Below, one piece after another: positions 19,440 to 36,321 of a stretch of 64,000 bases of DNA (positions are counted from its first letter, which is position 1; every line of letters starts with the position of its first letter). A program made the position numbers and the translations under genes. Source of the stretch: Pseudosporangium ferrugineum (GTDB taxonomy: Bacteria; Actinomycetota; Actinomycetes; Mycobacteriales; Micromonosporaceae); contig NZ_PVZG01000001.1 of NCBI RefSeq assembly GCF_003002065.1, forward strand, positions 744,001-808,000. The letters run 5' to 3'. The notes beneath the pieces were generated by a model. The model was not told where the DNA came from. It made no database searches and worked only from the letters and a program-made list of their open reading frames with translations.

Positions 19440-19615
19440 CGTTGTCCCTCTTCTCGCGCTCGTGGCGCCGCGCCCCGTGCACGCCGCCCTCGAGGAGGAC
19501 CAACGCGGGGATCGCACAGTCGCACCGACAAATGCGACACTTCATTCTTTCGGGGTCATCCGGCGGGGCGTAGTTGCCGACCGGGCGACCGGTCCCCCGT
19601 AACCGGCGCCGTGGC

Positions 19616-19621
19616 TACCGT
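19616..19621 (+). promoter_or_regulatory. -10 box of leaderless acyltransferase promoter
   Basis: TACCGT lies six bases before GTG 19628, with no Shine-Dalgarno. Confidence 0.5.
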
Positions 19622-19627
19622 TTCGCG

Positions 19628-20947
19628 GTGCGCAACCGCTACCTGGACCTTCTCCGGGCCGCCGCCATCGTCCGCGTCGTCGTCTACCACCTGTTCGGCT
19701 GGCCGTGGCTCTCCCTGCTGCTTCCCGCGATGGGCATCATGTTCGCCCTGGCCGGATCCCTGACCGCCGCCTCCCTGGACCGCCGGTCCGCGGGTGCGGT
19801 GCTCACCTCCCGGCTGCGCCGCCTGCTGCCACCGCTGTGGCTGCTCGGCCTGATCGTGGTGCCGGCGATGCTCTACGCCGGCTGGGCCGCTCAGGAGGGC
19901 GGCGACCGGCCGTGGAGCTGGAAGCTCGCGCTGTGGATCCTGCCGCTGGGCGACCCGCCGGGCAGCACCGAGGGCATCGACGCCTGGGAGCCGCTCTGGT
20001 ACATCCGGGCGTACCTGTGGTTCGTACTGCTGTCCCCGCTGCTGTATCTCGCGTACAAGAAGATCGCCTGGGCCGCGGTGGCCGCGCCGATCGTGCTGAT
20101 CGCGGTGCTCGACAAGACCGGCCTCACCCTGCCGTTCGGTCGCGCGGACGCGGCGATGTGGGACTTCGCCACCTACGGCGCCTGCTGGATCGCCGGCTTC
20201 GCGCACCACGACGGCCGCCTGCACCGCCTCCGCCCCGGCCTGGTCGGCGCGGCCGCCGCGGTGCTCGGCGTCGCGGCGCTCTACTGGCTGCACGGGCACC
20301 CGGGCGAGGGCGGGTACGACCTCAACGACGTGCCCGAGTCCCAGGCGCTGTGGTCGCTCGCGTTCGTGCTGCTGGCGCTGCGGTGGCGGCCGGACATGAC
20401 GTGGCTGTCGTACGTACGCCCGCTGGACCGCGCCGTGAACCTGCTCAACGCCCGCGCGGTCACCGTGTACCTGTGGCACAACATCGCGATCGCGGCGATC
20501 TGGCCGGTGCTGACGGTGCTGACGCTCGACGACACCGGGTCGATGGAGGGTCCGGTCACGCTCGGCGCGACGCTGGCGCTGACCGGGGTGGCGGTGCTCG
20601 CGTTCGGCTGGGCCGAGGACCTGGCGGCACGGCGGCGCCCGAGGCTGTGGCCGGCGGACGCGACCCCCGGCCGCCCGGCAGCCGTCCCCGCAGCACAGGG
20701 CCCAGCGGCACCCAACCCCGCGATACCCGGCCCCGCAGCACCGGGCCCTGCGATACCCGGCCCCGCGGCGCCGGGCCCTGCGATAGCCGGCACTGCGGCG
20801 CCTGGCCCTGCGACAGCCGGCACTGCGGCAACCGCGGCGCCGGTGGGAGGGCCGTGGGCGGAGCAGCCCGCGCCGCCGCAGGCCCGGCGGGCGGCGTACG
20901 AGGAACCCGCGGTCTCCTGGCTCGCCGGTGGTGCCGAGCGGGAGTGA
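19628..20947 (+). CDS. Acyltransferase 3 family membrane protein with Pro/Ala-rich tail
   Basis: A 439-aa polytopic protein. GTG 19628 is chosen because a leaderless -10 box is six bases upstream and the sequence starts at the family motif (VRNRYLDLLRAAAIVRVVVYH, with the conserved His). About ten membrane segments run to residue 330. The last 90 residues are a low-complexity Pro/Ala/Gly tail with PGPAIPGPAA-type repeats, absent from the paralogue at 2691. Substrate unknown; a surface or secondary-metabolite acylation is plausible. Confidence 0.87.
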   Translation: MRNRYLDLLRAAAIVRVVVYHLFGWPWLSLLLPAMGIMFALAGSLTAASLDRRSAGAVLTSRLRRLLPPLWLLGLIVVPAMLYAGWAAQEGGDRPWSWKLALWILPLGDPPGSTEGIDAWEPLWYIRAYLWFVLLSPLLYLAYKKIAWAAVAAPIVLIAVLDKTGLTLPFGRADAAMWDFATYGACWIAGFAHHDGRLHRLRPGLVGAAAAVLGVAALYWLHGHPGEGGYDLNDVPESQALWSLAFVLLALRWRPDMTWLSYVRPLDRAVNLLNARAVTVYLWHNIAIAAIWPVLTVLTLDDTGSMEGPVTLGATLALTGVAVLAFGWAEDLAARRRPRLWPADATPGRPAAVPAAQGPAAPNPAIPGPAAPGPAIPGPAAPGPAIAGTAAPGPATAGTAATAAPVGGPWAEQPAPPQARRAAYEEPAVSWLAGGAERE

Positions 20948-21011: not shown

Positions 21012-21503
21012 ATGGTGCACCCGGGGCATATCGGAGCACCGGCGGGGACGCCCGCCGGTGTGCCGTCGCTGGTCTTCCGGGCCGGTCCGCTGCTCTGTGC
21101 CCTGCGGATCGACGACGTCATCGAGACGATGCGGCCGCTCGTCACCCATCCCCTCGCCGGCACCCCGCCGTTCGTCTCCGGGATCTGCATCATGCGCGGC
21201 GCTCCCACCCTCGTCGTCGACGTCGCCCGGCTGCTGGGCGGGGCGAGCGCGCCGGTCGGCCGGTTCGTCGCGGTCCGCACCGAACGCGGTCCCGTGGCGT
21301 TCGCGATCGGGGAGATCCAGGGCGTACGGCCGGTCGGCGGCGACCCGGCGGCCCGGCACGAGGCCCTGCTCGGCGACGCCCCGGCCCGGCTGATCGCGGC
21401 GGTGGGCACGCTGGACGCCGAGCCGGTCCTGGTGCTGCAGGGCATGCGGTTCGTGCCCGACGAGGTGTGGGCCGCGGCCGGCGACCTGGCGGCCGCGTCG
21501 TGA
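21012..21503 (+). CDS. CheW-like coupling protein (WspB position)
   Basis: A 163-aa CheW-domain protein (about 15-155): LVFRAGPLLCALRIDDVIETMRP, GICIMRGAPTLVVDVARLLGG and VGRFVAVRTERGPVAFAIGEIQGV follow the two-barrel CheW pattern. It should link receptor and CheA. It is the first gene of a seven-gene operon with all junctions overlapping; its stop overlaps the CheR start (GTGA at 21500-21503). Confidence 0.88.
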   Translation: MVHPGHIGAPAGTPAGVPSLVFRAGPLLCALRIDDVIETMRPLVTHPLAGTPPFVSGICIMRGAPTLVVDVARLLGGASAPVGRFVAVRTERGPVAFAIGEIQGVRPVGGDPAARHEALLGDAPARLIAAVGTLDAEPVLVLQGMRFVPDEVWAAAGDLAAAS

Positions 21504-22948
21504 GCACGGCGCCCGACGTCACCGTGTTCCGCACGGTGCTCGCCACCCAGCTCGGGTGGATGTTCGACGACAACGACGTGCCGCAGCTGGCCCAGGTGCT
21601 GCGGGACCGGGTCGAGACGGCGCGGCTGCACCCCGGGGCGTACCTGCGGCGGCTGGCGCGCGGCGACTGGGACGCCGAGCTGGGCGCGCTCGCCGAGGAC
21701 CTGACGATCAACGAGACGTACTTCTTCCGGCACGGCGAGCAGTTCCGCGCGCTGGCCGAGGTGGTGCTGCCCGAGCGGCTGCGGGACCGGTACGCCCAGC
21801 GCATGCTGCGCCTGCTCTCCGTCGGCTGCTCCTCCGGCGAGGAGGCGTACACGCTGGCCATCGTGGCGCGGGAGGCGCAGTCCGACCCCGGCTGGATCCT
21901 CGACGTGCTGGGCCTGGACGCCAGCGCCGCCATGCTCGAGCAGGCGGCCCGGGCGCGGTACTCCGGCTGGGCGCTGCGCGAGACCCCGGACGCGGTCCGC
22001 GCCCGCTGGTTCCACCCCGAGGACGGGGAGTACATCCTCGACCCCGCGATCCGCGCGTCGGTGCGGTTCCGGCGGTACAACGTCGCCACGGAGGACGAGC
22101 AGCTGTGGCACTCCGGCCAGTACGACGTGATCTTCTGCCGGAACCTGCTGATGTACCTGACCCCGGACGTACGCGAATCGCTGATCGGCCGGATGACCCG
22201 CTCGCTGGCACCGGGCGGCTGCCTGTTCCTGGGTCACACCGACACCCTCGGCAGCCAGCCGGAGGGGCTCGAGCCGCAGCAGTCGCACCAGGCGTTCTAC
22301 TACCGCCGGGCCCCGAGCGCCGCCACCCTCGCCGCGCAGGCCCCCCGGCTCCGGCCACCCGCCCGGCAGGAGCCCACGCCCGCCTCGCAGGAGGCCGCCC
22401 GGGCGGTGCCGCGGAAGGCGCCGGCGACGCCAGCCGCGCCGGCCGCGCCGGGTGATGTGTACGGCAGGGCCCTGGGGCTGTTGCGCGACGAACGCTTCGA
22501 GGAGGCGCTGGCCGCCGTGGAGGACGCGCTCGGTGCCCGCCCGGCCCCGCGCGACCTGCTGCTGCACGGCGTCCTGCTGGCCCAGGCCGGCCGCCTCGAG
22601 GAGGCCGAGATCGTCTGCCGGCGGCTGCTCGACGTCGACGGGCTGTACGCCGACGCCCACCACCAGCTCGCCGTCTGCCTCGAGGGCGGCGCCGCGGTGG
22701 ACGTGGCGATCGGGCACTACCGGCTGGCGGCGTACCTGGATCCCGGCTTCGCGATGCCGCGGCTGCGGCTCGGCCTGCTGGCCCGGCGCCGGGGCGAGCT
22801 CCGGACCGCCCGCACCGAGCTGGAACGCGCGCTGGCCCTGCTCAAGCAGGAGCGGGAGGAGCGCCTGACCCTGTTCGGCGGCGGCTTCGGGCGGATCGCG
22901 CTGACCAGCCTGTGCCGGGCCGAGCTCGACTCGCAGGTGCCCCGGTGA
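21500..22948 (+). CDS. CheR-type MCP methyltransferase with C-terminal TPR domain (WspC-like)
   Basis: A 482-aa protein. The CheR domain (about 1-270) shows TINETYFFRHGEQFRAL, the SAM-binding SVGCSSGEEAYTLAI and FCRNLLMYL. After an Ala/Pro linker (about 275-315) come TPR-like helices (about 316-440: GRALGLLRDERFEEALAAVEDAL, YADAHHQLAVCLEGG). CheR-TPR fusions are typical of WspC and FrzF-type systems and not of plain flagellar chemotaxis. It should methylate glutamates of the receptor at 23481. The GTG start overlaps the upstream stop. Confidence 0.92.
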   Translation: MSTAPDVTVFRTVLATQLGWMFDDNDVPQLAQVLRDRVETARLHPGAYLRRLARGDWDAELGALAEDLTINETYFFRHGEQFRALAEVVLPERLRDRYAQRMLRLLSVGCSSGEEAYTLAIVAREAQSDPGWILDVLGLDASAAMLEQAARARYSGWALRETPDAVRARWFHPEDGEYILDPAIRASVRFRRYNVATEDEQLWHSGQYDVIFCRNLLMYLTPDVRESLIGRMTRSLAPGGCLFLGHTDTLGSQPEGLEPQQSHQAFYYRRAPSAATLAAQAPRLRPPARQEPTPASQEAARAVPRKAPATPAAPAAPGDVYGRALGLLRDERFEEALAAVEDALGARPAPRDLLLHGVLLAQAGRLEEAEIVCRRLLDVDGLYADAHHQLAVCLEGGAAVDVAIGHYRLAAYLDPGFAMPRLRLGLLARRRGELRTARTELERALALLKQEREERLTLFGGGFGRIALTSLCRAELDSQVPR

Positions 22949-23484
22949 GCCCCGCCGATGTGGGCGTGCGGCTGGCCGGCCTGCGCGAGGAGTTCGACCG
23001 CTCGTTCGCCGAGCCGGCCCGCCGCCACGACGTCGAGTACGCCGAACTCCTGGCCGTGCACGCCGGCGGCCGCCCGTACGCGCTGCGCCTCTCCCAGGCC
23101 TCCGGGCTGCACTCGGACCGCCCGGTGACGCCGCTGCCCGGCCCGCAGCCCGCGCTGCTCGGCGTGGCCGGCTTCGGCGGCGCGATCGTGCCCGTCTACG
23201 ACCTCGCCGCGCTGCTCGGGCACGCGCTGCCGGAACGGCCGCGCTGGCTCGTGCTCGCCGCGGGCGCACCCCCGCTGGCCCTCGCCTTCCACGGCCTCGA
23301 CGGCCACGTGCGGGTGCCCGCCACGGACATCGTCGAGGAGGCCGGCGGCCACGACGGCCGGGACGTGCTGCGCGGCATGGTCCCGCTGGCCGGCGGCACC
23401 CGCCCGATCGTCGACCTGCCGGCCGCCCGCGCCGCGGTGCACCGGCTCACCGGCCACAACCCGCACGTCCAGGAGGAGCCATGA
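22945..23484 (+). CDS. Second CheW-like coupling protein (WspD position)
   Basis: A 179-aa protein starting at the GTG that overlaps the CheR stop. A short helical N-terminus (VRLAGLREEFDRSFAEP) precedes a CheW domain (about 35-170) with LAVHAGGRPYALRLSQASGL and GVAGFGGAIVPVYDLAALLGH. Two CheW proteins with a CheR-TPR between them reproduce the wspB-C-D order. Its stop overlaps the receptor start (ATGA). Confidence 0.85.
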   Translation: MSPADVGVRLAGLREEFDRSFAEPARRHDVEYAELLAVHAGGRPYALRLSQASGLHSDRPVTPLPGPQPALLGVAGFGGAIVPVYDLAALLGHALPERPRWLVLAAGAPPLALAFHGLDGHVRVPATDIVEEAGGHDGRDVLRGMVPLAGGTRPIVDLPAARAAVHRLTGHNPHVQEEP

Positions 23485-24950
23485 AGGCCCGACGCACCTT
23501 CGGGAACAAGCTGGCGCTCAGCTTCGGCGTCACGGTGACGCTGACCATCGTCATCTGCGCCGCCTCGGTCGCCGCGCTGTCCCTCGTGATGACCGCGAAG
23601 GACAACGCGATCAAGGTGGCGGTCGACGACCTCGCCCGGTCGGAACAGTTACGGACCGAGGGCGAGAGCCGGATAGCGGACTACCGGGCGTACCTGCTCA
23701 ACGGACGGCAGGAGTATCTGGACCAGACCACCGCCGACCGCCAGCGGTTCCTGGCCCTGGTGACCCAGCTGCGCGGCTCGCTGACCGATCCGGCGGCGCA
23801 GAACCTGCTCGAGGCGGTGTCGACGGCGGAGGCGGCGCACGCGGCGATCCTCGACCCGGTGATCGAGCGCCGCAAGGAGATCACGAACCTCACCGACGTC
23901 GGGCAGCTGAACGCCACCGACGTCACCCCCGCCCGCAAGGCCCTCCAGGACTCCATCGTCGCCCTGACCGCCCGGGTACGCGAGAACGTCGAGCAGGCCC
24001 GGCGCGAGGCCTCCACCGAGGCCTCCCGCGCGATCGTCGTGATCATCGGGCTGGGGGTGCTGGCGCTGATCTTCGCCGCCTGGGTCGCCTGGAAGCTCAA
24101 CCGCGACCTGCGGCGCGAGGTCGGCGCGGCGATCGGGCACATCCAGAGCTCGTCGGCCCAGCTGGAGGCCGCCGCCGCCCAGCAGGCCAGCGGCGGCCGG
24201 GACCAGGCCAGCGCGATGAGCGAGATCACCACCACCATCAGCGAGCTGCTGATCACCTCCCGGCAGATCGCCGACAGCGCGCAACGGGTCTCGCAGATCG
24301 CCGAGGAGACGTCGGCCGCCGCGCGCACCGGCGACGCCACCATCGACCAGACCCGGGCCTCGATCTCCGCGATCCGCAACCAGGTGGACCAGATCGTCCA
24401 GCACATGCTGACCCTCGGCGAGAAGTCGCAGCAGATCGGCGGGGTCGTCGACCTGGTGTCCGAGCTGGCCGAACAGACCAACATCCTGGCCATCAACGCC
24501 ACCATCGAGGCCAGCGGCGCGGGCGAGTGGGGCCGGCGGTTCGCGGTGGTCGCCGAGGAGATCCGCAAGCTCGCCGACCGGACGGCCGGGTCGGCCAAGG
24601 AGATCCGCGCCCTCATCGACGACGTGCGGGGGGCGGTCAACACGACGGTCATGGCGACCGAGATCGGCGCCAAGTCCGTCGACTCCGGCGCCCGCCAGTT
24701 CGACGAGGCCACCGACTCGTTCCGGCGCATCGCGCAGCTCGTGGCCACCACCAACGACGCGACCCGGGAGATCGAGCTCTCCACCAAGCAGCAGACCACG
24801 GCGGTCGAGCAGGTCAACGTCGCCGCCTCGGACACCGCCCGGGTCACCCGCGAGACCGAGGCGAGCGCCGTGCAGACCCGGCAGACCGCGGCGCACCTGT
24901 CGAACCTCTCCGGCGACCTGCTCGACCTCGTCGGCAACGGGCGGTCATGA
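23481..24950 (+). CDS. Methyl-accepting chemoreceptor without HAMP domain (WspA position)
   Basis: A 489-aa receptor: TM1 about 13-37, an extracytoplasmic helical domain of CHASE3/four-helix type (about 38-183, with SRIADYRAYLLNGRQEYL), TM2 about 184-205, then the signalling domain. The kinase-contact tip is at about 328-352 (ELAEQTNILAINATIEASG, then GEWGRRFAVVAEEIRKLA). No HAMP domain is visible: the signalling helix begins directly after TM2. There is no CheR-docking pentapeptide at the C-terminus (ends GNGRS). The ligand is unknown; CHASE3-type domains often respond to surface or envelope state. Confidence 0.93.
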   Translation: MKARRTFGNKLALSFGVTVTLTIVICAASVAALSLVMTAKDNAIKVAVDDLARSEQLRTEGESRIADYRAYLLNGRQEYLDQTTADRQRFLALVTQLRGSLTDPAAQNLLEAVSTAEAAHAAILDPVIERRKEITNLTDVGQLNATDVTPARKALQDSIVALTARVRENVEQARREASTEASRAIVVIIGLGVLALIFAAWVAWKLNRDLRREVGAAIGHIQSSSAQLEAAAAQQASGGRDQASAMSEITTTISELLITSRQIADSAQRVSQIAEETSAAARTGDATIDQTRASISAIRNQVDQIVQHMLTLGEKSQQIGGVVDLVSELAEQTNILAINATIEASGAGEWGRRFAVVAEEIRKLADRTAGSAKEIRALIDDVRGAVNTTVMATEIGAKSVDSGARQFDEATDSFRRIAQLVATTNDATREIELSTKQQTTAVEQVNVAASDTARVTRETEASAVQTRQTAAHLSNLSGDLLDLVGNGRS

Positions 24951-27004
24951 GCCAGGACCCGCTGCGCTACTTCCGGGTGGAGGCCCGCGAACTGGTCGAT
25001 CAGATCAGCGCGGGCGTCCTCGACCTCGACCAGCACCCCGGCACCGAACCGGTGGCCCGGCTGCTGCGCTTCGCCCACACCCTGAAGGGCGCCGCCCGGG
25101 TCGTCCGCCAGCAGGAGATCGCCGACCGCGCCCACGCCTTCGAGGAGGTGCTGGTGCCGCACCGGAGCGACGAGGGCCCGCTCCCGGCGGCCGAGCTGCG
25201 CGAACTGCTGCGGCTCAACGACGAGATCGAGGCGTACGTGTCGGCGATCGAGCCCGGGGAGAAGCCCGCCCCGGCGCCGCACCCCCAGGCACCGGGACCG
25301 CGCGAGGCGCACGCGGCGGAGCCGGCCCCCGCGGCCCGGACCGCCACCGCCGACGTGGACGACCTGCTCGACGCCATCGGCGAGGCGCACGCCCGGTTCG
25401 CCCCGCTGCGCACCGGCGGGCTCTCCCTCGAACGGCTGCACCGGGCCGCCGAGACCCTCGCCGATCAGCTGCGGACCGGGCGGGCGACGGCCGGCACCCG
25501 GGCGGCGCGGGCGGCGGCCGTCCGGCTGGCGGTGGACCTCGGCGCCTTCAGCCGGCAGCTGGCCGACACGGTCGAGCAGGCCGAACGCGAGCTGGACGAG
25601 GTGCGCGGCCGGGCCGAGCGGCTGCGGCTGGTCGCGGCGTCCGGCATCTTCACCGCCCTGCACCGAGCGGTCCGCGACGCCGCGGACGCGGAGGGCAAGC
25701 GGGTGCGCTTCGAGGGGCGCGGCGGCGACCTGCGGCTCGACCCCCAGGTGCTCACCCTGGCCGGCAGCGCGTTGCTGCACATCGTGCGCAACGCGGTGGT
25801 GCACGGCATCGAGACCGAGCAGCGGCGGGTCACGGCCGGCAAACCCGCCGAGGGCACGGTCCTGGTGACGGTCGAGCGCCGGGGCCGCTACGCGGCATTC
25901 CTCTGTACGGACGACGGCCGCGGCTTCGACCTGGTCGCGCTCCGGCGCACCGCCGAGGCCCGCGGGCTGCTCACGCCGGGCGACCCGGCACCGGCCGAGG
26001 ACGCGCTGGTCGACCTCGTCCTGCGCGGCGGGATCAGCACCTCCCCCACGGTGACCGAGGTGGCCGGGCGCGGCATCGGGCTCGACGTGGCCCGCGACGT
26101 CGCCGAGCAGCTGGGCGGGCACGTGAGCGTCCGGACCGGCACGGGCCGGGGCACGACGATCGAGCTGGTGCTGCCGCTGGCCCTGCTGTCGCTGCACGGG
26201 CTCGTCGTGGAGGCGGCCGGGACCGTCGCCAGCGTGCCGCTCGACTCCGTGCGCACGTGCGTACGGCTGGCCCCCGAGCAGGCCGCGGCCGCGGTGATGA
26301 CCGGGAAGCTGGCGTACGACGGCGAGGCGGTGCCCTTCCTCCCCCTGGCCCGCGCCCTGTACGCCGGCAGCACCGTCCCGGAGAACGCCGGACCGGGCGT
26401 GGCCGTGGTGGTCGCCGCCGACGACGAGTGCGTGGCCGTGGGCGTGGACCGCCTCGCCGGCACCTCCACCCTGGTCGTGCGCCCGCTGCCCGAGCTGGCG
26501 CCCGCGGCCCCGGTGATCGGCGGCGTGTCCATGGACCTCGACGGCAACCCGCGCCTCGTGCTCGACGCGCAGGGCCTGGTCGCCGAGACGGCCCGGCTGG
26601 GCACCCTCGGCGCGGTGCCGTCACCGGCCACCCCGCGGCTGCCGATCCTCGTGGTCGACGACTCGCTCACCACCCGGATGCTGGAGCGCAGCATCCTCGA
26701 GTCGGCCGGCTACGAGGTGGACCTGGCCGCCTCCGGCGAGGAGGGGCTCGAGAAGGCCCGCTCCCGCCGGTACGGCCTGTACCTCACCGACATCGACATG
26801 CCCGGCATCGACGGGTTCACCTTCGTCGCCGAGACGCGCGCCGATCCGGAGCTGTCCGGCGTACCGGCGATCCTGGTCAGCTCGCGGGCCAGCGCCGAGG
26901 ACCGGGCCCGGGGTGCGGACGTGGGGGCGAGCGCGTACGTGGTCAAGGGCGAGTTCGACCAGGAGGAACTGCTGGCCCACATCCGGCGGCTGGTGCCCGC
27001 ATGA
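24947..27004 (+). CDS. CheA-type histidine kinase with C-terminal receiver (WspE-like)
   Basis: A 685-aa hybrid kinase. The Hpt domain (about 1-105) has the phospho-accepting His44 in RFAHTLKGAA. A Pro/Ala linker and dimerisation region lead to the HATPase domain (about 240-410: LLHIVRNAVVHGIE, CTDDGRGFDL, VAGRGIGLDV). A CheW-like domain (about 415-545) precedes a receiver (about 563-685) with VVDDS, the acceptor Asp in YLTDIDMPGIDGF and VSSRAS. The missing free CheY is consistent with the receiver being attached here. It starts by ATGA overlap with the receptor and ends by ATGA overlap with CheB. Confidence 0.93.
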   Translation: MSQDPLRYFRVEARELVDQISAGVLDLDQHPGTEPVARLLRFAHTLKGAARVVRQQEIADRAHAFEEVLVPHRSDEGPLPAAELRELLRLNDEIEAYVSAIEPGEKPAPAPHPQAPGPREAHAAEPAPAARTATADVDDLLDAIGEAHARFAPLRTGGLSLERLHRAAETLADQLRTGRATAGTRAARAAAVRLAVDLGAFSRQLADTVEQAERELDEVRGRAERLRLVAASGIFTALHRAVRDAADAEGKRVRFEGRGGDLRLDPQVLTLAGSALLHIVRNAVVHGIETEQRRVTAGKPAEGTVLVTVERRGRYAAFLCTDDGRGFDLVALRRTAEARGLLTPGDPAPAEDALVDLVLRGGISTSPTVTEVAGRGIGLDVARDVAEQLGGHVSVRTGTGRGTTIELVLPLALLSLHGLVVEAAGTVASVPLDSVRTCVRLAPEQAAAAVMTGKLAYDGEAVPFLPLARALYAGSTVPENAGPGVAVVVAADDECVAVGVDRLAGTSTLVVRPLPELAPAAPVIGGVSMDLDGNPRLVLDAQGLVAETARLGTLGAVPSPATPRLPILVVDDSLTTRMLERSILESAGYEVDLAASGEEGLEKARSRRYGLYLTDIDMPGIDGFTFVAETRADPELSGVPAILVSSRASAEDRARGADVGASAYVVKGEFDQEELLAHIRRLVPA

Positions 27005-28077
27005 TCCGCGTGCTGGTGGTGGAGGATTCGGCGACAATGCGGCACCACCTGCGCAACGCCCTCGCGGCCGACCCCGAACTGCGGGTGGTCGGCGAGGCGG
27101 TGGACGGCGCCCAGGCGGTCGAGATGGTCGGCCGGCTGCGCCCCGACGTGGTGACCATGGACATGATCCTGCCGACGATGAGCGGGCTGGTGGCGACCGA
27201 GCACATCATGGCGGAGTTCCCGACCCCGATCCTGGTGGTGTCGTCGGCGGACCGGCGGGAGCTGTTCAGCACGTACAACGCCCTGGCGGCGGGGGCGGTC
27301 GACGTGCTCGAGAAGCCGCGCGGCGACGAGTCCGACGCCGGGTGGGGGCGGCGGCTGTGCTCGGCCGTACGCCTGGTCTCGCGGATCCGGGTCATCACCC
27401 ACCCGCGGGCCCGTCTCGACGGCCGCAACCGCCCGGAGAGCAGGCCTTCCGCGCCGGCTCCGGCGGCCTTCTCGGTACGGGACGGCGCCGCGCCGCGGAT
27501 CGTCGTGGTCGGCGCCTCCACGGGCGGACCCGGCGCCATCACCGACCTGCTGCGCGCGCTGCCCGTCGGCTTCCGGACGCCGGTGCTGTGCGTGCAGCAC
27601 CTCGCCGCGAGCGAACCCTTCGCGGTGGCGTTCTCCGACTGGCTGGCCGGGCAGACCGGGCGCAACGTCAGCTACGCCACCGACGGCCTGCCGCTGACCG
27701 CGCTCGCCGGCCGGGTCCTGCTCGCCCCGCCGGACCGGCACCTGCTCGTGGCCGACGGCGCGGTACGGCTCAGCACCGCCCCGCCCCGGCACTCGTGCCG
27801 GCCCTCCGTCGACGTCCTGTTCGAGTCGGTGGCCGCGGAGTACGGTTCCTCCGCCGTCGGCTGCCTGCTCACCGGCATGGGCCGGGACGGCGCCGACGGC
27901 CTGCTGCGGATGCGTTCCCGCGGCGCCCTCACGTTCGCCCAGGACGAGGCGAGCTGCATCGTCTACGGCATGCCGCGGGAGGCGGCGCTGCTCGGCGCGG
28001 CGGCGTACGTGCTGCCGCCCGCCCGGATCGCCGCCCGGCTCGCCGAGCTCGCCCCGCGCGAGGGGGTGCACCCATGA
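27001..28077 (+). CDS. CheB-type receptor methylesterase (WspF-like)
   Basis: A 358-aa protein with an N-terminal receiver (VLVVEDSATMRHHLRNAL, acceptor in VVTMDMILPTMSGL) and a C-terminal methylesterase domain (about 160-350) with the full triad: Ser in GASTGGPGAI, His in CVQHLAASEP and Asp in LLTGMGRDGADG. It should remove receptor methyl groups when phosphorylated by the CheA at 24947 and so set adaptation against CheR. Overlaps both neighbours by 4 bp. Confidence 0.94.
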   Translation: MIRVLVVEDSATMRHHLRNALAADPELRVVGEAVDGAQAVEMVGRLRPDVVTMDMILPTMSGLVATEHIMAEFPTPILVVSSADRRELFSTYNALAAGAVDVLEKPRGDESDAGWGRRLCSAVRLVSRIRVITHPRARLDGRNRPESRPSAPAPAAFSVRDGAAPRIVVVGASTGGPGAITDLLRALPVGFRTPVLCVQHLAASEPFAVAFSDWLAGQTGRNVSYATDGLPLTALAGRVLLAPPDRHLLVADGAVRLSTAPPRHSCRPSVDVLFESVAAEYGSSAVGCLLTGMGRDGADGLLRMRSRGALTFAQDEASCIVYGMPREAALLGAAAYVLPPARIAARLAELAPREGVHP

Positions 28078-30029
28078 GCCCCACCGTGCTGATCGTCGAC
28101 GACAGCCTGACCGTGCGGATGAACCTGCACGAGGCGTTCGAGGCGGACGGCTTCACCACGATCCTCTGCGCGACCGGCGAGCAGGCGCGGGCGGCGTTCG
28201 TCGCGGGCGGCTTCGACGTGGCGGTGCTGGACGTGCTGCTGCCCGACGCCGACGGCGTGGACCTGCTGCGCGAGCTGCGCTCCCTGCCCGGGCGCGAGCA
28301 CACCGTGACGGTGCTGCTGTCCAGCGAGGCCGAGGTCGCCGACCGGCTGCTCGGCCTGCGCACCGGCGCGGACGAGTACGTCGGCAAGCCCTACGACGCC
28401 GGCTACGTGGTGGCCCGCTCGCGGCAGCTGCTCGGCGAGGACGGCGCGGCAGCCGACCCGCGGCCGACCGTGCTGGTCATCGACGACAGCCTGACGTTCC
28501 GCGAACGGCTGCGCCAGCTGCTCGAGCCCGAGGGGTACGCCGTGCTGACCGCCGCCTCCGGCGAGGAGGGGCTGCGGACGGCGGCGGACCGGCGGCCGCA
28601 CGCGGTGATCGTGGACGGCATCATGCCGGGCATCGACGGCGCGACCGTGATCCGGCGGCTGCGCCTCGACCCGGCGCTACGCGACACGCCCTGCCTGCTG
28701 ATGACGGCCGCCGACGACTACGCGACCGAGGTGCAGATGCTGGAGGCGGGCGCCGACGCGTTCGTCCGCAAGCAGCAGGACCTCGCCGTGGTCCTCGCCA
28801 AGCTGGCGGCGGTGCTGCGGACCAGCGCCGAGCAGCTGCCCATCGAGGTGATCGGCAGCCTGCACGGCCCGGGCAAGGTGCTGGCGGTGACCGCGGACCG
28901 GCGGCGGCTCGACGAGTGGGGCGACGTCCTGCGCGCCGACGGCTACGACGTGGTCGGTGCGGGCAGCGGCGACGAGGCGCTGGACCTGCTCGCGGCGCAG
29001 CCGGTCGACTGCATCGTGCTGGGCTTCGACGACGACGCCCGGCGGACCTGCGCGCGCGTCAAGGAGGTGCCGCAGATCCGCGACACCCCGCTGGTGATGG
29101 CCGGCGACGAGGACGACGCGCTGCTGGAGTGCCTGGCCGCGGGCGCCGACGACTACGTGCGCTCGGCGGACGGCGCGGACACGCTGCGGGCGCACGTACG
29201 GGCCCAGATCCGCCGCAAGCAGTCGCTGGACGAGAGCCGGCGGATCCGCGAGGAGCTGATGCGCCGCGAGCTCGACGCGGCCGGGGAACGCGCCGCCCGC
29301 CAGCTCGCCGAGACGCGGGCCGCCCTGGTGGAGGAGCTCGAGTGGCGCAACCGCGAGCTGGAGGCCTTCAGCGGCTCGGTCTCGCACGACCTGCGCGGGC
29401 CGCTGCAGGTGATCAGCAGCTACGCCGAGGCGATGCTGGACGAGGACGACGAGCCGCTGAGCGCCCAGGTCCGGCACCGGCTGGAGCGCATCCACGCGGC
29501 CGCGGGCCGGATGGCGGACCTGGTCGAGTCGCTGCTGATCCTGGCCCGGGCCAGCCGCGGTGAGCTGCGCCGCCACCGCATCGACATGACCGAGCTGGCC
29601 TGGCAGGTGATCCGCGAGGTCGAGGCCCGCGAGCCGGGCCGCGAGATCGAGTTCCGGGTGGACGAGGCGATGACGGCCGACGCGGACGAGGGCCTGGTCC
29701 GGGTCATCCTGGAGAACCTCGTCAACAACGCCTGCAAGTTCACCCGCCGGATCGAGAAGCCGTCGATCGAGGTCGGCTGGAGCGGCCCGCACGACGAAGC
29801 CCGCTACCACATCCGCGACAACGGGGCGGGCTTCCCGGCGGGCAAGGCGGGCGAGCTGTTCCGCCCGTTCGCCCGCCTGCACAGCGCCGAGGACTTCCCC
29901 GGCACCGGTATCGGCCTGACCACCGTCCACCGCGCGGTGGAACGCCACGGCGGCGAGATCCACGCGGAGGGCGAGGACGGGCGCGGCGCGACCTTCTGGT
30001 TCACCCTTCCGCCGGGGAGGGCGAGCTAG
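28074..30029 (+). CDS. Multi-receiver hybrid histidine kinase (three receivers plus kinase), probable output of the operon
   Basis: A 651-aa protein without membrane segments. REC1 (about 1-118) has acceptor Asp53 in VLDVLLPDADG; REC2 (about 131-248) has Asp181 in VIVDGIMPGIDG; a third receiver-like region (about 266-380) lacks the acidic pair and has Gly/Phe in place of the acceptor (CIVLGFDDDA), so it looks inactive. A helical linker leads to HisKA with His438 (FSGSVSHDLRGPLQV) and HATPase (ENLVNNACKFTR, NGAGFPAGK, GTGIGLTTV). It is the last gene of the cluster, in the place where Wsp systems have the WspR diguanylate cyclase. It should receive phosphate from the CheA, then act on a further, unlinked regulator. 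Confidence 0.92.
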   Translation: MSPTVLIVDDSLTVRMNLHEAFEADGFTTILCATGEQARAAFVAGGFDVAVLDVLLPDADGVDLLRELRSLPGREHTVTVLLSSEAEVADRLLGLRTGADEYVGKPYDAGYVVARSRQLLGEDGAAADPRPTVLVIDDSLTFRERLRQLLEPEGYAVLTAASGEEGLRTAADRRPHAVIVDGIMPGIDGATVIRRLRLDPALRDTPCLLMTAADDYATEVQMLEAGADAFVRKQQDLAVVLAKLAAVLRTSAEQLPIEVIGSLHGPGKVLAVTADRRRLDEWGDVLRADGYDVVGAGSGDEALDLLAAQPVDCIVLGFDDDARRTCARVKEVPQIRDTPLVMAGDEDDALLECLAAGADDYVRSADGADTLRAHVRAQIRRKQSLDESRRIREELMRRELDAAGERAARQLAETRAALVEELEWRNRELEAFSGSVSHDLRGPLQVISSYAEAMLDEDDEPLSAQVRHRLERIHAAAGRMADLVESLLILARASRGELRRHRIDMTELAWQVIREVEAREPGREIEFRVDEAMTADADEGLVRVILENLVNNACKFTRRIEKPSIEVGWSGPHDEARYHIRDNGAGFPAGKAGELFRPFARLHSAEDFPGTGIGLTTVHRAVERHGGEIHAEGEDGRGATFWFTLPPGRAS

Positions 30030-31004: not shown

Positions 31005-33563
31005 TCAGTCCGTCGCGAGCGCCGCGACCGGGCTGACCTTCGCGGCGCGGCGGGCCGGCAGGACGCCCGCGGCGGCGGTGAACACGATCAGGGCCAGGAA
31101 CACCACCAGGAGCTGGCCGGCCGGCAGTTCGAGCGGCGCGTTCACCCCGAGGGCCTTGAGCGACAGCCAGGCGTACGGGACGCCGAGCACGAGCCCGATC
31201 GTGGCGCCGATCAGGCCGTACAGGCTGGACTCGGCGGTGAGCATCGCCCGCAGGCCGCCGCGGGAGAGCCCGACGGCGCGCAGCAGGCCGGACTCGCGGA
31301 CCCGTTCGACCACCGAGAGGGCGGTCGTGGTGCCGACGCCGACGACCGCGATCAGCACGGTCAGCCCGACCAGGCCGATGACGACGGCGAGGACGCCGTT
31401 GAGCACCAGGTTGAACTCGTCGCGCTGGTCGGCGAGCACCTCGACGCCGTACCCGGGGCGGCCCTGGACGGCCTGGCGCAGCGCCTTCTGCCCCGCGGTG
31501 CGGCCCTGCTCGCCGTCCTTGGCCGCGTCGGCCAGCACGCCGGAGTACGTGGCCGTCGCGCCCAGCTTGGTCAGGTCCGACGGGTCGAGCATGAAGTACG
31601 CGTGCAGCGGCCCGTCGTCCGGCAGTACGGCCACGACCTCGAGCTTGACCTGCTTCTTGCCCTTGGTGAGCGTGGTGGTGTCGCCGACGTGCAGGCCGTG
31701 GTTCTCGGCCGCGTAGCCGGCCAGGACGATCTTGCCGGGGCCGAGCGCGGCCAGCGAGCCCTCGGTCGCGTCGACCTTGCGCAGCTCGGGCAGGCCGGAC
31801 ATGACGAGGTCGGTCGGGGCCGCCTCGTCGTCCGTCGCGCCGACCCGGACGCCGGACAGCCGGCGGTACGGCGAGACGTGCGCCAGGTCGGGGCTCTGCC
31901 GGATCTGGTCCAGCACCGCCTGCGAGATCTTCTCGTCGCCGTTGGCGGTCAGTTCGTAGTCGGCGGGCGACGAGACGGCCATCTCCCGGCCGGCGAGGAC
32001 GCGGACCGAGGCACCCGTCACCACCACGCCGGCGATGAGCGTGACGCCGAGGGCGACGACGATCGAGACGGCGGCCGCCCGGCGGGGGGCACCGCCGACG
32101 CCGCCGACCGCGAGCCGCCCGACCGGGCCGAGCCGGCGCAGCGGCCAGCCGACCGTGGCGAGCACCGGGCGCACGAGCAGCGGGCCGAGCGCCATCAGCG
32201 CCAGGAACGCCAGGGCGCCGGAGCCGACGGTGGCGAGCAGCATCGGCTCGGGGTTGTAGTTGCGGGTGTCACGGCCCGGCAGGTTGGTGAACACGTACGC
32301 GGCCAGCACCCCGGCCCCGCCGAGCAGCAACACGCCGAGCACGCCCCGCAGCACGCCGATGCTCTTGCGCCCGCCGGTGGTGCTCGCCGAGCGCAGCGCC
32401 TCGAGCGGTGCCACCTTCGCGGCGGTGAACGCGGGTGCCAGCACGGCCAGGACGGTGATGCCGACGGCGAGCGCGACCACGCCGAGCGCGGGCATCAGCG
32501 GCAGGCCGGGAGCGACCAGGTCGAGGTCGAACAGGCCGGCGAGCGGCAGCACCGCGTACCCGACCAGCAGGGCGCCCAGGACGCCCACCGTGCCCGCGAC
32601 GAAGCCGGTCAGGGCGCCCTCCACCGCGAGGGCACGCCAGATGGAGCCGCGGCCCGCGCCGACCGCGCGCAGCAGCGCCAGCTGCCGCATGCGCTGGGCG
32701 AAGACGATCCGGAACGTCGAGGTGGCGACGAGGCCGGCCGCGAGGACGGCGACGAACACGAACACGCCCACCGCGATGAAGACCTCGTCGAGGTCGGAGG
32801 CGGCCTCGTTGGCCTCGGCCAGGCGCACGTCGTCGCCCTGCATGACGGCCGCCCGGTCGGCGCCCTCGGCGGGTGCCGGGGCCGCGGCGATGATGCGCTC
32901 CGCGGCGGTGGTGACGGCCGCTCGATCGGTGCCCGGCGCGAGCCGCAGTTCGACGCGGCTCATGTACTTGTCGCGCGAGAGCGCCGTCACGATCTTCTCC
33001 GGCGCGTACCCGACGAAGCCGTAGTCGCTGTCGGCGTCGACGATCCCGGTGACCTTGACCTGCGCCGGCTTGATCGGCCGGCCCTTGTCGTCCCAGTCGG
33101 TGTGGATGGTGACCGCGCTGCCGACGGGCAGGCCCATGCGGTCGGCGGTCCGCGGGGTCACCGCGATCTCGCCGGGCTTCGACGGGTACACGCCCTTGGC
33201 GATCTTCACGGTGGCGAGCGGGCCGCTGCCCGGGTCGGACATCACGGCGAGGTAGTCGCCGTTCAGGTCGCCGCCGCCCTCGGCCCGGCCGACCGCCTCG
33301 GCGACGCCGGGCAGGGCGCGCAGCGCGGCCACGTCGGCGGCGCGGATCTGCACCCCGCCGCCGCTGTCGGCCGGAGCGCCGATGACCAGGTCGACCGCGG
33401 CCGGGGTGCCGCTGAGCCCCTCGATCGCGGTCCGCTCGGTGATCTGCTGGGCGAGGACGGTGGCGTACACGACGAACGAGGCGACCAGCACGGCGAGGCC
33501 GGTCAGCAGGAGCCGGGCCGGGCGCTTGGCGACGCCGGCCAGCTGGGTTCCGAGGACCTTCAC
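31005..33563 (-). CDS. FtsX-type ABC transporter permease, 852 aa
   Basis: A large permease with two FtsX/MacB units: N-terminal TM (ARLLLTGLAVLVASFVVYA), an extracytoplasmic domain, three TMs (near 250-400), then a linking pair of TMs and a second unit ending in three TMs with VVERVRESGLLRAVGLSRGGLR. Typical of large Gram-positive exporters of lipids, peptides or antibiotics. GTG 33563 overlaps the stop of the ATPase gene (GTGA). The operon is divergent from a two-component system at 34517, an arrangement often found for self-regulated export. Confidence 0.92.
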   Translation of the reverse strand: MKVLGTQLAGVAKRPARLLLTGLAVLVASFVVYATVLAQQITERTAIEGLSGTPAAVDLVIGAPADSGGGVQIRAADVAALRALPGVAEAVGRAEGGGDLNGDYLAVMSDPGSGPLATVKIAKGVYPSKPGEIAVTPRTADRMGLPVGSAVTIHTDWDDKGRPIKPAQVKVTGIVDADSDYGFVGYAPEKIVTALSRDKYMSRVELRLAPGTDRAAVTTAAERIIAAAPAPAEGADRAAVMQGDDVRLAEANEAASDLDEVFIAVGVFVFVAVLAAGLVATSTFRIVFAQRMRQLALLRAVGAGRGSIWRALAVEGALTGFVAGTVGVLGALLVGYAVLPLAGLFDLDLVAPGLPLMPALGVVALAVGITVLAVLAPAFTAAKVAPLEALRSASTTGGRKSIGVLRGVLGVLLLGGAGVLAAYVFTNLPGRDTRNYNPEPMLLATVGSGALAFLALMALGPLLVRPVLATVGWPLRRLGPVGRLAVGGVGGAPRRAAAVSIVVALGVTLIAGVVVTGASVRVLAGREMAVSSPADYELTANGDEKISQAVLDQIRQSPDLAHVSPYRRLSGVRVGATDDEAAPTDLVMSGLPELRKVDATEGSLAALGPGKIVLAGYAAENHGLHVGDTTTLTKGKKQVKLEVVAVLPDDGPLHAYFMLDPSDLTKLGATATYSGVLADAAKDGEQGRTAGQKALRQAVQGRPGYGVEVLADQRDEFNLVLNGVLAVVIGLVGLTVLIAVVGVGTTTALSVVERVRESGLLRAVGLSRGGLRAMLTAESSLYGLIGATIGLVLGVPYAWLSLKALGVNAPLELPAGQLLVVFLALIVFTAAAGVLPARRAAKVSPVAALATD

Positions 33564-34351
33564 CGGTGGTTCCCCAGGCTCTGCAGGGCCTCGGTGACGG
33601 AGGCGCGGTCGGGGCGGTCGATCTCGCCGGCGATCCGGCCGTCGGCGAGCAGGACGACGCGGTCGGCGTACGCGGCCGCGCCCGGGTCGTGGGTGACCAT
33701 GACGATGGTCTGGCCGAGGTCGCGGACCGAGCCGCGCAGGAAGGACAGCACCTCGGCGCCGGAGCGGGAGTCGAGGTTGCCGGTCGGCTCGTCGGCGAAG
33801 ACCACCTCGGGGCGGGCCACCAGGGCCCGGGCGAGCGCGACCCGCTGCTGCTGGCCGCCGGAGAGCTCGCTGGGCCGGTGGGTGAGGCGGCCGTCGAGGC
33901 CGAGCACGCCGGTGAGGTGGGCGAGCAGTCCGCGCTCGGCGGTGCGGCCGGCCAGGTCCAGCGGCAGCGTGATGTTCTGCTCGGCGGTGAGCTGCGGGAG
34001 CAGGTTGAACGACTGGAAGACGAAGCCGATCCGCTCCCGGCGGACCTTGGTCAGCACCCGGTCCGGCTGCACGGTCAGGTCGGTGCCGCCGAGCAGGGCC
34101 TTGCCGGAGGTCGCGGTGTCGAGCCCGGCGAGGCAGTGCATCAGCGTCGACTTGCCGGAGCCGGACGGGCCCATGATCGCGGTGAACTGGGCGCGGGTGA
34201 AGCCGACCGTGACGCCGTCGAGGGCGCGCACCGCGGTGTCGCCGCTGCCGTACACCTTCACCAGGTCCACGGCCGCGACGGCGGTGAGCCGGCCGTCGGC
34301 GCCGCCCGCGGCGGGTGTCGTCGGCACGTCGGCCGGGGACTGGGTGTGCAT
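33560..34351 (-). CDS. ABC transporter ATP-binding protein
   Basis: A 263-aa ATPase. ATG 34351 is chosen over an upstream frame because GGAGG lies seven bases before it. Motifs: Walker A MGPSGSGKST, Q-loop VFQSFNLLPQ, signature LSGGQQQRVALARAL, Walker B VVFADEPTGNLD and switch His in VTHD. It is a LolD/MacB-type subunit that drives the adjacent 852-aa permease. The first 35 residues are a Pro/Ala/Thr-rich extension not needed for the fold. Confidence 0.94.
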   Translation of the reverse strand: MHTQSPADVPTTPAAGGADGRLTAVAAVDLVKVYGSGDTAVRALDGVTVGFTRAQFTAIMGPSGSGKSTLMHCLAGLDTATSGKALLGGTDLTVQPDRVLTKVRRERIGFVFQSFNLLPQLTAEQNITLPLDLAGRTAERGLLAHLTGVLGLDGRLTHRPSELSGGQQQRVALARALVARPEVVFADEPTGNLDSRSGAEVLSFLRGSVRDLGQTIVMVTHDPGAAAYADRVVLLADGRIAGEIDRPDRASVTEALQSLGNHR

Positions 34352-34502
34352 GGGGTTGCCTCCGAGATCGCAAGAGATGACGCAAGTGGGGAACTGGGAG
34401 AATCCTGGGCGAGGGCACCCGGTCCGCACATCGGTCCGGGGTGGGGCTCGCGGTCCGGCGTGGATCTGCCTTTCGGCCGATGGAGCGCCGGGAGGATGCC
34501 AT

Positions 34503-34508
34503 TACGCT
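34503..34508 (+). promoter_or_regulatory. -10 box of the two-component system (leaderless)
   Basis: TACGCT eight bases before ATG 34517. A GGGAGG directly abuts an earlier in-frame ATG at 34496 with no spacer and so cannot serve it. The -10 box favours ATG 34517. Confidence 0.4.
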
Positions 34509-34516
34509 GGGTCACG

Positions 34517-35686
34517 ATGTTGACGCAACGCCTGCTTCTGCTGCGCCTCGGCCAGCTCGCCGCCCTGTTCCTCATGGCCTGCCTCGGTCTCTTCGACCTG
34601 GCCAACGGCATGACCAACAGCGGCTCCTTCGTGCTGATCCAGATCCTGACCGCGATCGCGACGGCGGTCGTCTGGCTGCCCCGCCATCGCCAGGGCTCGA
34701 AGCGTCTGCCGAAAGTCGCACTGGCGCTCGGCATCGGCTCCCTGCTGCTGACGATGGTGCTGACCGGCGACTCCGGGACGGGCGGCAGTTACGGCCTCGC
34801 CGAGACCGTCGGACTGCTGGGCGTCCTCTTCGTGGTCAGCCGCCGCGGCGACGCGCAGTGGGCCGTCGGCGGGGTGCTCGCGGTGTCGATGGCGCTCGGC
34901 TTCCTCCCGCTGCGCAGCGGGCTGGACTACGAGATGGTCATCGTCGGCCTGATCCAGGGCCTGGCCGCCACGGCCGTGATCGGCCTCGGCGTCTACCTGC
35001 GCAACATCGAGGCGACCCGCCGCCGGGCGATGGATTCGGTACGCGCGGAGCAACGCGCCGAGTTCGCCCGCGACCTGCACGACTTCATCGCCCACCACGT
35101 GACCGGCATCGTCATCCAGGCCCAGGGCGCCCGCTTCGTCGCCGAGCAGGACCCCAAGCGGGTGCTGCTGGCGCTGGAGCAGATCGAGGCCGCGGGCGCG
35201 GAGACGATGGCGTCCATGCGCCGGATGGTCGGCGTCCTGCGCGACCCCGAGGCGAAGCCGGACGCGCCGCTGACCCCGCTGGCCGGGGTGGACGAGCTGG
35301 GCCCGCTGCTGGAGCAGTTCACCAACTCGGGCGGCCCGCTGGCCCGGCTGCACCTGGACGGCAGCACCACCGGCGTGCCCGTGGAGGTGTCGACCTCGGC
35401 GTACCGGGTGGTGATGGAGGCGCTGACCAACATCCGCCGGCACGCGCAGGGCGCCCGGGTGGCCGACGTGTGGGTCCGGCGTACGCCCGACTGGCTGCTC
35501 GTCCGGGTGGCGAACGACGGTTTGCCCCCCAGGGCTCCCGCGACCCGGGAGGCGCCGGGGTACGGTCTCGTGGGCCTGCAGGAGCGGGTCCGCGCGGTCG
35601 GCGGGCGCATCACCGCCGGGCCGGGCATCGACGGCGGCTGGGTGGTCGACGCGGCCCTGCCGCTCGACCAGGAGGTGACGCGGTGA
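34517..35686 (+). CDS. NarL/DesK-class sensor histidine kinase
   Basis: A 389-aa membrane kinase. Residues 10-160 contain about five to six hydrophobic segments with very short loops, so it probably senses within the membrane. The HisKA_3 helix has the acceptor His188 in EFARDLHDFIAHHVTGIV, and the HATPase domain follows (VVMEALTNIRRHA, YGLVGLQERV). It pairs with the response regulator by a GTGA overlap and is divergent from the ABC exporter at 31005-34351, which it probably controls. ATG 34496 is an alternative start. Confidence 0.92.
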   Translation: MLTQRLLLLRLGQLAALFLMACLGLFDLANGMTNSGSFVLIQILTAIATAVVWLPRHRQGSKRLPKVALALGIGSLLLTMVLTGDSGTGGSYGLAETVGLLGVLFVVSRRGDAQWAVGGVLAVSMALGFLPLRSGLDYEMVIVGLIQGLAATAVIGLGVYLRNIEATRRRAMDSVRAEQRAEFARDLHDFIAHHVTGIVIQAQGARFVAEQDPKRVLLALEQIEAAGAETMASMRRMVGVLRDPEAKPDAPLTPLAGVDELGPLLEQFTNSGGPLARLHLDGSTTGVPVEVSTSAYRVVMEALTNIRRHAQGARVADVWVRRTPDWLLVRVANDGLPPRAPATREAPGYGLVGLQERVRAVGGRITAGPGIDGGWVVDAALPLDQEVTR

Positions 35687-36321
35687 TCCGCGTGATGATC
35701 GCCGACGACCAGGCGATGGTACGCACCGGCTTCGGCATGATCATCGGTGCGCAGCCCGACATGGAGCTCGTCGGCGAGGCGGCCGACGGCGTCGAGGCGG
35801 TGGCGATGGCCCGCAAGCTCAAGCCGGACGTGGCGCTCTTCGACATCCGCATGCCCCGGATGGACGGCCTGGAGGCGCTGCGGCTGCTGGCCGGCCCCGG
35901 CGTCGCCGATCCGATGAAGGTCGTCGTGGTGACCACCTTCGACCTCGACGAGTACGTGCACCAGGCCCTGCGCAACGGCGCCGCGGGTTTCCTGTTGAAG
36001 GACTCCGGCCCGTCGCTGCTCGTCGAGGCCGTCCGCGCGGCCGTGTCCGGGGACGCGCTGATCAGCCCGTCGATCACCGTACGGCTGCTGGAGCACCTGT
36101 CCCCGCCGGCGCCCAGCGACGACGACGGCGGCCTCTCCCCGCGTGAGCTGGACGTGGTCAAGCTCGCCGCCCGCGGGCTGACCAACGCCGAGATCGCCAC
36201 GCAGCTGTTCATCTCCGTCGGCACGGTGAAGACGCACCTCGGCAGCGTGCAGACCAAGCTGGGCGCCCGCAACCGGGTGGAGATCGCGGCGTGGGCGTGG
36301 GAGCGTCGGCTGGTGAGCTGA
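35683..36321 (+). CDS. NarL-family response regulator
   Basis: A 212-aa regulator. The receiver (1-120) has MIADDQAMVRTGFGMI, acceptor Asp in VALFDIRMPRMDGLEA and conserved Thr and Lys (VVTTFD, LLKDSG). The LuxR-type HTH (about 145-210) reads LSPRELDVVKLAARGLTNAEIATQLFISVGTVKTHL. The GTG start overlaps the kinase stop. Likely targets are the divergent ABC operon promoter (34352-34516) and its own promoter. Confidence 0.95.
   Translation: MIRVMIADDQAMVRTGFGMIIGAQPDMELVGEAADGVEAVAMARKLKPDVALFDIRMPRMDGLEALRLLAGPGVADPMKVVVVTTFDLDEYVHQALRNGAAGFLLKDSGPSLLVEAVRAAVSGDALISPSITVRLLEHLSPPAPSDDDGGLSPRELDVVKLAARGLTNAEIATQLFISVGTVKTHLGSVQTKLGARNRVEIAAWAWERRLVS

Follow-up and report, generated by a model that had tools for sequence, protein, structure and literature searches.

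What does a chemosensory operon do in a filamentous actinomycete when it ends neither in CheY nor in a diguanylate cyclase, but in a second histidine kinase? The question is raised by seven genes on the forward strand of Pseudosporangium ferrugineum contig NZ_PVZG01000001.1, at positions 21012-30029 of a stretch of 64,000 nucleotides (the window; 744,001 to 808,000 of the contig). A first-pass annotation, made from the letters alone, had read them as a Wsp-like operon in which a multi-receiver kinase replaces the diguanylate cyclase WspR and carries the phosphate signal into a non-motility chain. Our preferred reading, to which we assign a probability of roughly 0.57, is that the operon is the che 3 cluster of the Actinoplanes clade, an alternative-function (ACF-type) pathway wired like Che3 of Rhodospirillum centenum, whose terminal kinase, here called CheS, most likely helps to control sporangium or spore development. 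The genes, which include a methyl-accepting chemotaxis protein (MCP), and the acyltransferase family 3 (AT3) gene directly upstream are as follows:

21012..21503, + strand: cheW1, coupling protein (Pfam CheW, 50 bits)
21500..22948, + strand: cheR-TPR fusion, receptor methyltransferase (Pfam CheR, 155 bits, with weak TPR matches; GTGA overlap)
22945..23484, + strand: cheW2, second coupling protein (Pfam CheW, 48 bits)
23481..24950, + strand: MCP receptor with signalling coiled coil (Pfam MCPsignal, 126 bits)
24947..27004, + strand: cheA-REC hybrid with Hpt (His44), HATPase, CheW and C-terminal receiver (Asp615) (Pfam Hpt, HATPase_c, CheW, Response_reg)
27001..28077, + strand: cheB, receptor methylesterase with receiver (Pfam REC and CheB_methylest; NCBIfam CheB above cut-off)
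28074..30029, + strand: cheS, REC1-REC2-REC3 (degenerate)-coiled coil-HisKA (His438)-HATPase, 651 aa (Pfam: three REC stretches, HisKA, HATPase_c; AlphaFold; conservation in 32 sequences)
19574..20947, + strand: atsA-like AT3 acyltransferase, directly upstream of the operon (Pfam Acyl_transf_3)

Pfam searches and a reading of the junctions bear out the coordinates, domains and His438 first proposed, and all six junctions are 4-bp overlaps. The CheA has a single CheW domain; Pfam H-kinase_dim was matched neither in it nor in the three alphaproteobacterial relatives tested. In the MCP, the Pfam search gave no HAMP match and only a weak CHASE3 match (23.8 bits, cut-off 28). An AlphaFold model places helices at residues 2-74, 77-100, 104-133 and 149-216, with a predicted local distance difference test score (pLDDT) of 71-92 over residues 41-180 and 68.5 for the whole model; the N-terminus is thus predicted to be a four-helix sensor, which by inference would sit outside the membrane.

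CheS has the domain string originally described; its third receiver lacks the acceptor Asp. REC1 (D9, D10, D53, S83, K105) and REC2 (D137, D138, D181, T211, K233) are complete, His438 and the HATPase boxes are present, and REC3 is still predicted to adopt the (beta-alpha)5 fold (AlphaFold, mean pLDDT 75). The kinase is of the HisKA type, and Pfam matched no PAS domain in the protein. Across the 32 distinct CheS sequences compared, no variation was seen in His438, in the HATPase boxes or in those residues of REC1 and REC2 that were checked (32 of 32). REC3 is complete, by eye, only in genome G024 (locus L051); its acceptor Asp is kept in the other two genomes of that genus (L049, L050), in four of the six of genus g44 (L037, L038, L047, L048) and in L044, and is lost in the Actinoplanes group and genus g7. 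It follows that two receivers are strictly constrained, whereas the third has decayed. The window CheA receiver, REC1 and REC2 have a common DDSLTxR after beta 1, where CheB has EDSATMR, a likeness in line with a shared phosphate donor.

The unit is not a chance arrangement, because 21 of 21 relatives within the family keep all seven genes on one strand with their order unchanged. CheS occurs in 22 of 121 family genomes, our own included, and these 22 are also the ones that have the window-type CheA. (Locus L055 was excluded from the residue conservation counts, being, by its contig of equal length, from the same genome as L031, and L050 was excluded from the CheW1 alignment, its CheW1 having been matched by tblastn.) A search with the last protein gave 19 named loci, 11 of them close (77-89%), with Couchioplanes caeruleus first, followed by Nucisporomicrobium flavum, Amorphoplanes, Winogradskya, Symbioplanes, Actinoplanes and Jidongwangia; the seven genes are complete in 10 of these 11. 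The flanking genes differ among genera. The search of actinobacterial genomes that the first-pass annotation had called for thus found the order within the family and, in our samples, no full-length CheS outside it. With three to four candidates scored per genome, the class sample gave a single full-length CheS among 394 genomes, the protein itself, and the three hits among 298 genomes of the order were the protein itself, one family member and one kinase-only match.

Phylogeny separates the operon from the other chemosensory systems of its host. The 8.65 Mb genome has three CheW-bearing clusters: this one and those on contigs C7 and C12. In a CheA tree of 25 sequences and 326 columns, 14 actinobacterial proteins form one clade (100%), apart from the CheA proteins of C7, C12 and E. 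coli, which group together at 98%; a CheB tree of 20 sequences groups the same three at 98%. That separation, read from trees with few flagellar classes sampled and by tree position rather than published class profiles, supports an alternative-function pathway. The C7 cluster comprises a double-CheW CheA, CheX, receivers and CheB, ~28-35 kb from the flagellin genes, which are located on that contig. Two CheW domains are found in 99% of F5 flagellar CheA proteins (PMC10782961); the C7 CheA has two, whereas that of the window does not. The operon also combines CheR-TPR with a multidomain response regulator in place of CheY, as ACF systems do (PMC3447774). In CheR-TPR clusters, some 40% of the response regulators include a histidine kinase module (PMC3447774), and ACF systems have already been reported in three Actinoplanes species (PMC10746217).

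The likeness to Wsp holds for the gene set, but not for the order or the output. Pseudomonas wsp starts with the receptor gene wspA. Two CheW proteins, CheR-TPR, MCP, CheA-REC and CheB are gathered in one operon in both systems, but in the window the MCP has moved behind the second CheW, and a REC-REC-REC-HisKA-HATPase protein stands in place of the terminal REC-GGDEF protein WspR. The closest worked-out circuit is not Wsp but R. centenum Che3/CheS3, which regulates dormant-cell development and, like the window, has two CheW, CheR, MCP, CheB, CheA-REC and a tandem-receiver kinase with an active and a dead receiver (PMC3868531). There, CheA3 phosphorylates REC1 of CheS3, REC2 has Ala at the acceptor position, and cheS3 is epistatic to cheA3; phosphorylation by CheA3 lowers CheS3 kinase activity toward a separate regulator, while the CheA receiver drains phosphate (PMC3868531). 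The two systems differ in that CheS3 is a REC-REC-PAS-HWE protein in a cluster with the single-domain CheY3, whereas the window CheS has three receivers, a HisKA kinase, no PAS match and no linked CheY.

The six-gene order CheW-CheR-CheW-MCP-CheA-CheB also occurs in Methylobacterium bullatum (L079), Pseudoroseomonas cervicalis (L102) and Azospirillum ramasamyi (L074). In the first two, both on plasmids, a REC-REC-kinase ends the set as in the window, with two receivers versus three, and the next gene encodes a REC-PAS-kinase-REC protein; in Azospirillum, the output is a two-receiver protein and a separate kinase-REC. A REC-REC-PAS-HWE protein, the architecture of CheS3, lies behind CheA-CheB in Indioceanicola profundi. 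On the Pseudoroseomonas plasmid, CheB lies in two overlapping frames with no coding sequence listed (L102:10425-11485).

Using such alphaproteobacterial proteins as stand-ins for CheS3, we asked which of the three receivers correspond to their pair. Window residues 129-395 (REC2-REC3) align with residues 12-294 of Methylobacterium CheS at 88 bits, versus 67 for the REC1 register. Three other actinobacterial CheS proteins gave 99-127 versus 57-66 bits against the same protein, and the Pseudoroseomonas protein gave 65-97 versus 39-56. REC2-REC3 therefore seems, on these alignments, to be the counterpart of the receiver pair in the Methylobacterium and Pseudoroseomonas proteins, with REC1 as an extra. 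The kinase domains of three actinobacterial CheS proteins are 47-51% identical to one PAS-kinase of the window's genome. Given the low identity of the window kinase to the Methylobacterium and Pseudoroseomonas kinases (24-26%) and the HWE kinase of CheS3, the tandem-receiver backbone seems to have taken different kinases in different lineages.

Within its own clade the operon apparently has a published name. The che 3 cluster of Actinoplanes missouriensis (AMIS_52400 onward) starts beside the AT3 gene atsA, which has a separate transcript, and includes an MCP and a CheA-CheY fusion; it is stated, as an unpublished result, not to serve zoospore chemotaxis (PMC11064477). The window likewise has an adjoining AT3 acyltransferase, an MCP and CheA-REC, and many Actinoplanes-group loci have the AT3 gene in that upstream position, though those of g7, g25, g30 and g44 do not. 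Synteny with atsA and clade-wide conservation are the grounds for the match, che 3 having been compared through its published neighbourhood only.

The operon follows flagellin-bearing lineages, although nothing flagellar was seen inside it. Among the genomes with the operon, 22 of 22 carry flagellin, compared with 12 of the 99 that lack it (11 above the Pfam cut-off; Fisher p 7e-16, a value that shared ancestry inflates); by genus, the figures are six of six versus 4 of 38 (p 3e-5, counting a sub-cut-off match in g42 as negative). The original description of a non-motility chain was thus too simple, even though CheA and CheB stand apart and no flagellar gene was seen alongside. N. flavum, described with non-motile spores (PMC11960193), carries the operon (L056), which speaks against a strict tie to swimming and, with the remark on che 3 and zoospore chemotaxis, makes a part in the life cycle of the spore more likely.

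We propose the following circuit, in which the phosphate flow, its sign, the output and the match to CheS3 itself are inferred. The membrane receptor, through its four-helix sensor, would control CheA via the two CheW proteins, while CheR-TPR and CheB would set receptor methylation. CheA would autophosphorylate at His44; its phosphate would go to CheB, to the CheS receivers REC1 and/or REC2, and to CheA's own receiver, which would act as a sink. REC2-REC3 would be the counterpart of the alphaproteobacterial active-dead receiver pair, REC1 would add one more acceptor, and REC3 would be a receiver that is decayed, structural or allosteric. Receiver phosphorylation would alter the kinase activity of CheS, lowering it by analogy with CheS3, and CheS would phosphorylate a response regulator encoded elsewhere. 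The idea that phosphate enters a second kinase accordingly has a precedent in CheA3 and CheS3 (PMC3868531), but there CheA phosphorylation lowers the activity of that kinase instead of relaying phosphate through it. The output would most likely be the sporangium or spore developmental programme, not flagellar steering.

Several observations weigh against this reading. Shared ancestry is a confounder of the flagellin association, and the presence of the operon in N. flavum, given its non-motile spores, must be counted here too. At the window kinase domain, identity to the Methylobacterium and Pseudoroseomonas kinases is only the 24-26% given above, so that, CheS3 being an HWE kinase, CheS need not be regulated in the same direction. 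Of the four comparisons made with the Indioceanicola CheS3-type protein, three favour the REC1 register by 1-2 bits, and the one with L051 puts it 32 bits behind. The one incomplete close locus, Actinoplanes sp. TFC3 (L061), has no match upstream for either CheW protein, for CheR, for the MCP or for about 117 residues at the start of CheA, a part that includes the Hpt; of 33 loci, it is the only one without the CheA Hpt histidine, which the other 32 have. The stretch has no run of N and retains CheB and a full-length CheS (CheA at 7228), so CheS may outlive its donor, or the locus may be decaying or misassembled.

Nor did a search for the CheS target produce one. The first-pass annotation had suggested looking for a co-occurring orphan regulator, and two candidates surfaced, each in part of the operon genomes. 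AsfR is a single-receiver orphan regulator required for mature sporangia and has no kinase known for it; the screen made in A. missouriensis to find one covered 33 non-hybrid kinases and left 17 hybrid kinases out (PMC11960193). This exposes a gap, since a che 3 kinase of CheS architecture would fall among the hybrids and may have escaped the screen. Our AsfR candidate, picked by its subtilase neighbour and residue spacing rather than by sequence, reached the E-value cut-off in 28 of 121 genomes; counting the 18 with at least 53% identity, it is present in 13 of 22 operon genomes versus 5 of 99 others, with none in g44 or g25. Missing from nine operon genomes, it is no obligate partner, and its distribution matches that of flagellin, present in 17 of the 18 carriers, rather than that of the operon. 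The gene (G000:C7:1137-1562) lies beside the subtilase gene and ~9-12 kb from the flagellins, though AsfR is described as an orphan. At a second locus (L109:5717-9245; C1:397.7-401.2 kb of our genome), a PAS-kinase, a 149-aa single receiver and a REC-PAS-kinase-REC hybrid stand in a row. The PAS-kinase is the closest paralogue of the CheS kinase (46-47%), and the hybrid is 34% identical to the protein encoded after CheS in M. bullatum. The single receiver reached the search cut-off in 83 of 121 genomes; counted only at 63% identity or above, it is found in 12 of the 22 genomes with the operon and in 0 of 99 others, which is suggestive, but it is missing in 10. Neither candidate is convincing, and no target was identified.

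The flagellin association also admits another explanation, in which the operon modulates spore motility, the unlinked CheS target acting either on the motor of the flagellum or on the halt in swimming that precedes germination. All 22 operon genomes have flagellin, and FtgA, from one of the three A. missouriensis che clusters (which one is not stated), stops zoospore swimming (PMC11960193). We nevertheless consider this unlikely: the operon showed neither CheY nor CheX nor any flagellar gene, CheA and CheB stand apart from the two other systems of the genome, che 3 is stated to be unrelated to zoospore chemotaxis (PMC11064477), and the operon is absent from 12 of 34 flagellin genomes.

Two further explanations concern CheS itself. 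It could be an ordinary hybrid kinase like RodK, phosphorylating its own REC1 or REC2 while CheA mainly serves CheB and its own receiver; kinases with several receivers that transfer phosphate within the molecule are on record (RodK, cited in PMC3868531), and L061 keeps CheS with the CheA Hpt gone. That CheS is the seventh operon gene in all 21 relatives read, and that in the window REC1, REC2 and the CheA receiver have DDSLTxR in common, makes this rather improbable. Less probable again is a Wsp pathway in disguise, with CheS ultimately activating an unlinked diguanylate cyclase. REC-GGDEF proteins do end related operons, in Novosphingobium (L076) and in an actinobacterium of the same class (L127), Actinoplanes has GGDEF proteins in abundance (PMC10746217), and the window has a GGDEF gene 8 kb upstream. 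That gene's product, however, has no receiver match, the seventh gene is CheS and not REC-GGDEF in 22 genomes, and a rough two-sequence GGDEF profile matched only one of 32 operon loci, outside the operon (L063). In the CheA tree, the Novosphingobium protein falls on the C7/C12/E. coli side (80%), so that, within a small, E. coli-rooted tree, Wsp-type and window-type CheA are not sisters.

For the che 3 reading, then, the cluster, the ACF class and the circuit type are already in print (PMC11064477, PMC10746217, PMC3868531). A search of the literature gave, among the matches listed, no published account of the triple-receiver kinase, the receiver register, the kinase exchange or the family-wide flagellin association; supplements and most subscription journals lay outside its scope. 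Our results place a rare, biochemically worked-out circuit, CheA controlling a second kinase, in a genetically tractable clade of sporulating actinomycetes, tie it to flagellin-bearing lineages and name exact residues for testing. As a speculation, and a doubtful one, a dormancy circuit in which CheA restrains a tandem-receiver kinase might have been assembled at least twice on one six-gene backbone with unrelated kinases, governing cysts in alphaproteobacteria and sporangia in the Actinoplanes group, the latter with an extra input receiver.

Around the operon, the genome-wide receiver list (128 matches) leaves in the window only the receivers of CheA, CheB and CheS and one LuxR-type regulator (~35.7-36.3 kb), so there is no CheY near the operon, as was claimed at first pass; CheD and flagellar families gave no match among the ~30 window frames searched with Pfam, which are part of the window's genes. 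An adjoining CheY or flagellar cluster and a flagellar-class CheA and CheB, the two findings named beforehand as fatal to the non-motility reading, were thus looked for and not encountered, few flagellar classes being sampled. The LuxR-type regulator was rejected as a CheS target because it is paired with its own HisKA_3 kinase and is not an orphan. A DUF427 gene 9 bp downstream had no tblastn match at 1e-10 in 32 relative loci and is placed outside the unit.

At 31005-36321, an FtsX-type permease and an ABC ATPase (- strand) lie beside the HisKA_3 kinase and LuxR-type regulator (+ strand), a block kept near the operon in many Actinoplanes-group loci. Three loci of g44 (L037, L047, L048) have an extra receiver frame ~3-4 kb upstream of cheW1, that of L047 being 49% to the window LuxR-type frame. 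The GGDEF protein upstream lies at 11944-13020, and an EAL-DICT protein at 41375-42688, 11 kb away.

Farther afield, with two candidates scored per genome, a CheA at 33-40% identity was found in 39 of 393 other genomes of the class, and the seven-gene set was absent from all 20 loci read (from 19 of those 39 genomes). One of these actinobacterial operons (L127, genome G188), MCP-CheW-CheA-CheB-CheR with a terminal REC-GGDEF protein, has a Wsp-like output. In the other 19 (L128-L146, from other families), the gene after CheA-REC encodes a receiver protein, of the REC-GAF type in the three searched with Pfam; CheW-MCP(-MCP) precedes CheA-REC in 17, the contig ending upstream in two, and no CheR or CheB-methylesterase match was found on the operon strand within the stretch. 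The layout is apparently that of an adaptation-free chemosensory system, carried by mostly fragmented genomes of 2-4.3 Mb.

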